IMG/VR virus record: IMGVR_UViG_3300005288_000028
Span: 7,533-35,653 of that record
Direction: 5' to 3' (one strand)
Source of the DNA: a virus
DNA length: 28,121 nucleotides
Part shown: positions 18,220-19,326 of the stretch, one piece after another
Position numbering within the stretch: the stretch's first letter is position 1
Layout of the letters: each line of letters begins with the position of its first letter
Notes under the pieces: model-generated
What the model was told of the DNA's origin: nothing
Database searches by the model: none
The model's input: only the letters and a program-made list of their open reading frames with translations
Made by a program: the position numbers and the translations under genes

Positions 18220-18650
18220 GCGGCTGCACCTTCTTCGGCAGGCTGTTCGCGAGGGGTCTTGACACCCTCGATAACAATAGCGTCCAGATAAACCCGGAAA
18301 GCCAGCGCGATGATAAAGCTGGTATCCTGAAACCGCTCAGCGGGAATCATACCAGCCGCACCGCCTTCCGTTCCGTTCAGAACATTCTGGAAGAGCTCTG
18401 CGAATTGGGTGATTGCATCCTGGTCATCACGGAGTTCGGTATACACCTGCATCTGGATGTTCAGCCAACGGTCGAACAATGCAGAGGAAACCGCCACCGA
18501 TTTGATGAAGGCCTCGTAAGCCGTAGCGAACGTCACCAACGGCTTGTGAGCCATGCTTGCCATCGGAACGATGATGTCCGTCCGGCCGTCGTTATTGATA
18601 GCGACGTAAACGCGTTCGATCACTGTCTTCAGCGCAATCAACTTATCCAT
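18216..18650 (-). CDS. Unknown small protein (144 aa)
   Basis: I place the start at ATG 18650, where ATGGATAA overlaps the stop of the upstream gene by 8 bases. An earlier in-frame ATG at 18722 would add 24 residues (RRYWRPRTTSCVVVTSTTTW) that lie in the coding part of the previous gene and look like frame shadow. The 144 residues are helical and start MDKLIALKTVIERVYVAINN, ending in a Glu/Ala tail. Its stop overlaps the next start as ATGA. No family is recognised. Tight overlaps on both sides suggest that it works with its neighbours. Confidence 0.75.
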   Translation of the reverse strand: MDKLIALKTVIERVYVAINNDGRTDIIVPMASMAHKPLVTFATAYEAFIKSVAVSSALFDRWLNIQMQVYTELRDDQDAITQFAELFQNVLNGTEGGAAGMIPAERFQDTSFIIALAFRVYLDAIVIEGVKTPREQPAEEGAAA

Positions 18651-19326
18651 AGCGCTTGTCCAGGTTGTTGTCGATGTGACGACCACGCATGATGTAGTGC
18701 GCGGTCTCCAGTACCTTCGCAATACCGCCGCGACGAAGGCTGCTGTTGGTGTTGGTCTTACCGGTGGTCAGCAGGTCGTTCTTGTAGGCCTTCAAGGCGT
18801 CCAAGTCACCGCCCTTGACGTTGTACAGTTCGTTGGCCATGGTGTACAGACCCAGGTTACGCAGAACCGTGATCTCAGGCTGACTGATACCCGTCGAGCG
18901 AGAGTCGCCCATGACCTGACCGGTGAGGTCGTCGATGTTGTAGTCGTCCTTTGCTGCACCAAACTTCTTGATGAGCATCTGACGCTGCTTACGACATTCC
19001 GCCGTACCGATGATAGCGGAGTAGTCGGTCATCGATTTGATGCCGGTGTCTTCGTCGTAAACGACCAGACGCTGTACCGCGTTAACCCCGTACTTCTCGC
19101 AGAGTTTCAGGAGGTTGTCGAAGTCCAGCTTTTCTTTCTCGTCAAACGAGCTGGCCCAGATAGAGAGAGGCATCCCCTGTTCCATCTTGACCACGAAGTC
19201 TTCGATCTGCTTGTCCGACATGGGTTTTAGCAGGCGCTCGTAAATGACCTTGTTGCCCCCACCTTTTGTCAGACTTCCCATGAACCCGTAGATGAATTCT
19301 TCAAAGCCCTTGCGATTGCCTGCCAT
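18643..19326 (-). CDS. Unknown protein (227 aa) with resemblance to the C-terminal region of RNA polymerase beta
   Basis: The protein has 227 residues with a good ribosome site (GAGGAAG) before ATG 19326; the previous stop is 2 bases upstream. Residues 151-174 align without gaps to the E. coli beta C-terminal segment [10 protein letters not shown]...LTVKSDD. Shared positions are E151, L155, G159, E166, V170, K171 and D174, then YKN (181-183) matches after a one-residue gap. Upstream, FD...LLKL...RL.YD..TG (residues 61-95) occurs in the same order as FDGAKE...LLKL...IRLYDGRTG of beta. By eye this is only about 17-29% identity. If right, this is the split-off beta clamp end of a phage polymerase, possibly the counterpart of phiKZ gp149. 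Otherwise it is an unknown virion protein. Confidence 0.75.
   Translation of the reverse strand: MAGNRKGFEEFIYGFMGSLTKGGGNKVIYERLLKPMSDKQIEDFVVKMEQGMPLSIWASSFDEKEKLDFDNLLKLCEKYGVNAVQRLVVYDEDTGIKSMTDYSAIIGTAECRKQRQMLIKKFGAAKDDYNIDDLTGQVMGDSRSTGISQPEITVLRNLGLYTMANELYNVKGGDLDALKAYKNDLLTTGKTNTNSSLRRGGIAKVLETAHYIMRGRHIDNNLDKRYG

Follow-up and report, generated by a model that had tools for sequence, protein, structure and literature searches.

A free-standing C-terminal piece of the RNA polymerase beta subunit, very probably of the virion enzyme, in an uncultivated jumbo phage

Is a 227-residue protein encoded in a virus record of environmental sequence data a detached end of an RNA polymerase (RNAP) beta subunit, and if so, to which polymerase does it belong and where is the rest of the subunit? 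The window, by which we mean the whole stretch of DNA that was analysed (28,121 nucleotides), covers positions 7533-35653 of the 35,653-base record IMGVR_UViG_3300005288_000028. An earlier note, made from the letters alone, had suggested a split-off C-terminal domain of a phage beta subunit for one open reading frame (ORF) in it. This ORF of 227 aa does exist, runs from ATG to stop and lies on the minus strand, which the note had not given. We conclude that its product, here called C-beta, is almost certainly the C-terminal piece of beta of a phiKZ-type jumbo phage virion RNAP.

18643..19326, minus strand: C-beta of the virion RNA polymerase (very probable), 227 aa; ortholog of phiKZ gp149 and SPN3US gp218, equivalent to E. 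coli beta ~1134-1340
19332..19338 (approximate), minus strand: GAGGAAG preceding the ATG of C-beta, probably its ribosome-binding site, as read from the upstream sequence

The beta claim had been made by eye from a 24-residue segment, EITVLRNLGLYTMANELYNVKGGD (residues 151-174), which aligns ungapped with E. coli beta 1274-1297 at 7/24 identical positions (E, L, G, E, V, K and D), and the further residues quoted are all present in order, namely FD (61-62), LLKL (71-74), RLVVYDEDTG (86-95) and YKN (181-183). The residues were thus read correctly, but the segment taken alone is no better than chance: it has a BLOSUM62 sum of 26, and when 40 shuffles of the C-beta protein were searched for a 24-column ungapped match anywhere in E. 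coli beta, 39 of them did equally well or better. Therefore the claim does not rest on that segment, even though reading the raw sequence by eye correctly picked a homolog of 20% identity. Using HHalign we compared phage-family profiles of 16 and 58 sequences with a profile of 14 bacterial RpoB C-termini and obtained probabilities of 95.1% and 93.4% (P=3e-8 and 2.5e-7 over 175 and 170 columns), the real scores being 59 and 54 against 26 (6%) for the best of 100 column shuffles, while the reversed-profile control gave a probability of about 1%. When full-length RpoB was divided into eight overlapping segments, the phage family matched 1120-1342 only, and the beta-like match spans nearly the whole protein (residues about 11-208), wider than the 60-190 that had been expected. 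A search of the 16-sequence profile against all PDB sequences gave nine matches, all of them RNAP beta (E=0.012, about 1161-1316); with the 58-sequence profile beta was not among the matches, which were unrelated and weak, so that the support from sequence depends on the profile used. With BLASTP, residues 33-183 were aligned with E. coli beta 1161-1307 (E=0.016, against that one sequence). A phmmer single-sequence search of the PDB sequences with C-beta returned nothing relevant, and a bacterial beta profile found no matches in the relatives' genomes, a search that had no positive control and is thus uninformative.

The HMM comparison proposed in the earlier note had a divided outcome. Scanning the whole record with PF04560 (Rpb2_7) gave no match, C-beta remaining below the Pfam gathering cut-off as the divergence of the phage family exceeds what a single-sequence model can recognise, whereas the profile-profile comparison reaches the beta C-terminus at 93-95%. 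Neither in C-beta nor in any of 16 family members was an RNA polymerase domain recognised by Pfam. C-beta is thus a remote homolog of the bacterial beta C-terminus which by Pfam's definition stands outside Rpb2_7 membership. The likeness to bacterial RpoB ~1134-1340, the Pfam Rpb2_7 region, is colinear over ~175-188 columns and is matched by the predicted fold, at an identity of about 19-20%; C-beta differs in being a separate polypeptide, and its family has TGQxxGxS...PE in place of a 20-residue RpoB motif.

The AlphaFold2 model of C-beta has a mean pLDDT of 76 and a pTM of 0.40, with low confidence at residues 110-125 and 142-144. When the model was compared with the PDB by Foldseek, the first 42 matches were RNAP beta or its counterparts (best E-value 2.8e-3), and in VIA-align all 50 rows were beta, placing model residues 1-227 on E. 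coli 1134-1340 and on 434-648 of the C-beta of the AR9 non-virion RNAP (nvRNAP). Close superposition is confined to the region beyond residue ~120 (2.0-4.0 Å over 56-89 residues); the whole-chain rmsd to beta in VIA-align is 18-20 Å (Z <=5.6), which we read as two halves of the model that are not reliably placed relative to each other. Similarity to beta, on which the earlier note had made its proposal depend, was hence found by HHalign, Foldseek and VIA-align. The same matches bear on the idea that the protein is an accessory or promoter-recognition subunit, like phiKZ gp68 or AR9 gp226, and not a piece of beta. Being small and associated with a polymerase of several polypeptides, and having a sequence that Pfam does not recognise, C-beta could be taken for one, but the profile and fold matches are colinear and specific to the beta C-terminus and the matching part of the AR9 polymerase is chain C, over the residues just given, which makes such a role very improbable. 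A gp68-type accessory subunit was dropped as a candidate since all matches are to the beta C-terminus.

C-beta belongs to PHROG 3233, "RNA polymerase beta subunit" (E=2e-78; residues 1-224 on profile positions 1-224 of 225), and its relatives were found in 273 phage records, mostly of jumbo phages, and in at least 227 viral contigs. The hosts of the jumbo phages bearing it are Pseudomonas, Erwinia, Salmonella, Vibrio, Serratia, Aeromonas and Klebsiella; each of three relatives of 220-233 kb has a single copy, and 11 columns are invariant among the 58 aligned sequences. The database names are inconsistent, many records saying virion structural or hypothetical protein and two saying alpha subunit, and the homology to beta was therefore tested independently of names. 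The "alpha" label stands in the GenBank records of Proteus phage 7 and Serratia phage Moabite, where it is probably a naming error. Such unreliable names would also fit an ordinary virion structural protein whose polymerase label has merely been carried from record to record as annotation. As the test of homology made no use of names, and as the orthologs are linked to the polymerase by published data from co-immunoprecipitation and from the proteomes of mutant virions, we give this explanation hardly any credence.

If C-beta is the end of beta, the remaining part should be encoded elsewhere, and the earlier note had reckoned with the possibility that the gene running off position 1 carries a complete beta C-terminus. 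This gene encodes an N-beta that ends after the catalytic barrel, and it is accompanied by genes for pieces of beta'.

1..2735, running off the window start, minus strand: N-beta of the virion RNAP, phiKZ gp178 ortholog (PHROG 3148, E=0 over 4-1442)
2738..4354, minus strand: N-beta' of the virion RNAP, 538 aa, phiKZ gp180 ortholog (PHROG 2986, E=1.7e-206)
parent record 2563-3288, outside the window, minus strand: proposed C-beta' (gp176/gp244-type), 241 aa (phiKZ gp176, 28.8% identity, E=9e-33)

The full N-beta gene (parent record 5939-10267) encodes a protein of 1442 aa that matches PHROG 3148 from one end to the other. In HHalign the C-terminal 420 residues of N-beta correspond to E. coli beta ~658-1122, and both active-site lysines are kept (DKYVLANQMK versus E. 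coli DKMAGRHGNK, with the spacing of 8 seen in K1065/K1073). N-beta ends about 60 residues past the second of these lysines, just after the double-psi barrel (~E. coli 1122). As C-beta starts at ~1134, the break lies just after this barrel with little or nothing missing, the gap being at most about a dozen residues in E. coli numbering, and the two genes jointly cover the beta core through to the end. The distance between them is about 16 kb (2735 to 18643), as had been suggested for a split beta, a proposal on which profiles, predicted fold, gene order and literature now agree. The site at which beta is cut, after the catalytic barrel, is thereby pinned down.

Within N-beta, residues ~318-425 form a ~100-residue low-complexity stretch, acidic and rich in Gly/Ser, which separates a phage-specific N-terminal region from the polymerase part and is possibly a linker to a head-targeting domain. 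Ambiguous bases at parent record ~7400-7540, left of the window start, lead to X residues at ~912-945, where the N-beta sequence is unreliable. Contigs from other samples, one of them of 133 kb, encode identical C-terminal 320 residues of N-beta, so nearly the same phage has been assembled from other samples; the 133-kb contig has no C-beta match and seems to end before the position of the C-beta gene. N-beta' shows 30.7% identity to phiKZ gp180 over 486 aa (BLASTP, E=1e-76) and carries the metal-binding motif in YDSDHDGDQL (DxDGD). The 241-aa ORF is labelled by its PHROG as a virion structural protein only; as ortholog of phiKZ gp176 it is also that of SPN3US gp244, which has been proposed to form the C-terminal part of beta', and mid-beta' (gp80 type) should be located elsewhere in the genome. 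Between N-beta and the gp177-like gene lies a 297-aa gene (parent record 5043-5936, minus strand, outside the window) with lysozyme/baseplate-hub-like and endolysin-type matches, which phiKZ lacks at this place. When PDB sequences were searched with C-beta and N-beta', no close relative having a solved structure was found, and the map from genes to polymerase parts may therefore help in rebuilding the virion enzyme.

The surroundings of C-beta were described in the earlier note as a recombinase-led unit, and a UvsX-like recombinase is indeed the first gene of the same-strand cluster that contains C-beta.

19795..21270, minus strand: UvsX-like recombinase, 491 aa, phiKZ gp152 ortholog (PHROG 97, E=4e-34; phiKZ gp152, 26% over 479 aa, E=8e-38)
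19329..19769, minus strand: 146-aa ORF directly upstream of C-beta, at the phiKZ gp150/gp151 position by gene order (PHROG 13878, E=3e-46)
18216..18647, minus strand: 143-aa ORF at the phiKZ gp148 position (PHROG 24314, E=2e-21 with a longer frame; junction sequence)
17476..18219, minus strand: 247-aa ORF at the phiKZ gp147 position (PHROG 3328, E=1e-41; weak match to phiKZ gp147, E=0.002)

The 146-aa ORF is listed with a GTG start and its PHROG match begins at residue 28, and the ATG of the 143-aa ORF overlaps the C-beta stop codon (TATGGATAA). This neighbourhood of recombinase, gp150-like gene, C-beta and gp148-like gene is conserved and matches phiKZ gp152-gp147 and EL gp173-gp177.

In bacterial RNAP the segment that follows the catalytic barrel contains switch-3 and, at the C-terminus, the helices by which beta is anchored to the beta' clamp. 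C-beta would supply in trans this beta side of the clamp base and the switch region (switch-3). By analogy with phiKZ and SPN3US, during infection the separate chain would join N-beta, N-beta', mid-beta' and C-beta', the assembled polymerase would be packed into the phage head, and after ejection with the DNA it would transcribe the early genes without the host polymerase. The SPN3US head contains gp218 (betaC), gp241 (betaN), gp240 and gp42, none of which is present in the virions of a gp241 amber mutant (PMC5105663). The phiKZ protein gp149 is recovered together with gp180, gp178 and gp80 in co-immunoprecipitation, and the phiKZ virion polymerase enters the cell with the injected DNA and is kept out of the phage nucleus (PMC10612078, 2023). 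Presence in the virion and the polymerase complex has thus been demonstrated for the phiKZ and SPN3US orthologs, and the relationship suggests the same for the phage studied here. It could also be that a free-standing C-beta is more than a by-product of gene splitting, namely a detachable clamp base which allows the polymerase to go through the tail tube with its chains apart and to be assembled or switched on only inside the host, but we consider this speculative and rather unlikely.

Besides the virion enzyme there is a non-virion polymerase (phiKZ gp71-73 type). C-beta might be assigned to that enzyme instead, since either one requires a C-terminal part of beta and the fold matches include the C-beta chain of the AR9 non-virion polymerase. 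The AR9 chain (7s00/7s01 chain C) resembles it in the fold of its last ~215 residues; in the non-virion enzyme, however, the catalytic barrel and the C-terminal extension are kept in one protein (PMC7824862), whereas C-beta has no barrel and is orthologous to the virion subunits gp149 and gp218. We therefore see next to no chance for a non-virion origin and assign C-beta to the virion polymerase. This enzyme has been described as N-beta and C-beta with three beta' pieces (PMC7598289), and according to Iyer et al. the extension after the barrel is a separate protein in virion polymerases (PMC7824862). Earlier publications describe the split of beta (Thomas 2016; Sokolova 2020; Iyer 2021), and C-beta is a new ortholog, from an uncultivated jumbo phage, of a known subunit whose split and family have already been described.

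The closest annotated relative is gp175 of Pseudomonas phage EL, with 67.6% identity over 225 aa and the same neighbours. EL differs in its N-beta counterpart, which appears as two annotated ORFs, gp186 and gp187. At EL 198600-201492 these are separated by a 457-base gap with the HNH endonuclease gene gp185 nearby, and an intron is possible there; neither this gap nor the window gave a match to a known RNA family (Rfam). SPN3US gp218, the betaC of its virion enzyme, which occurs in heads (PMC5105663), is similar in length (222 aa). The Salmonella phage protein SPFM4_00201, which was included in the family alignment and is ~28% identical to C-beta, would be the counterpart of gp218 judging from length and family, the experimental work being on the SPN3US side only. 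For phiKZ, the earlier note had named gp149 as a parallel, a distant second beta gene; this stands and can be refined, as C-beta is the ortholog of gp149 and not merely comparable to it, so that the split is a known and conserved trait of phiKZ-type phages. The two proteins have 224 and 227 aa, the same gene order and the same strand relation to the recombinase gene, but their sequences have diverged (30.9% identity over 175 aa, E=3e-23) and the spacing from N-beta to C-beta is ~27 kb in phiKZ versus ~16 kb in the record studied here.
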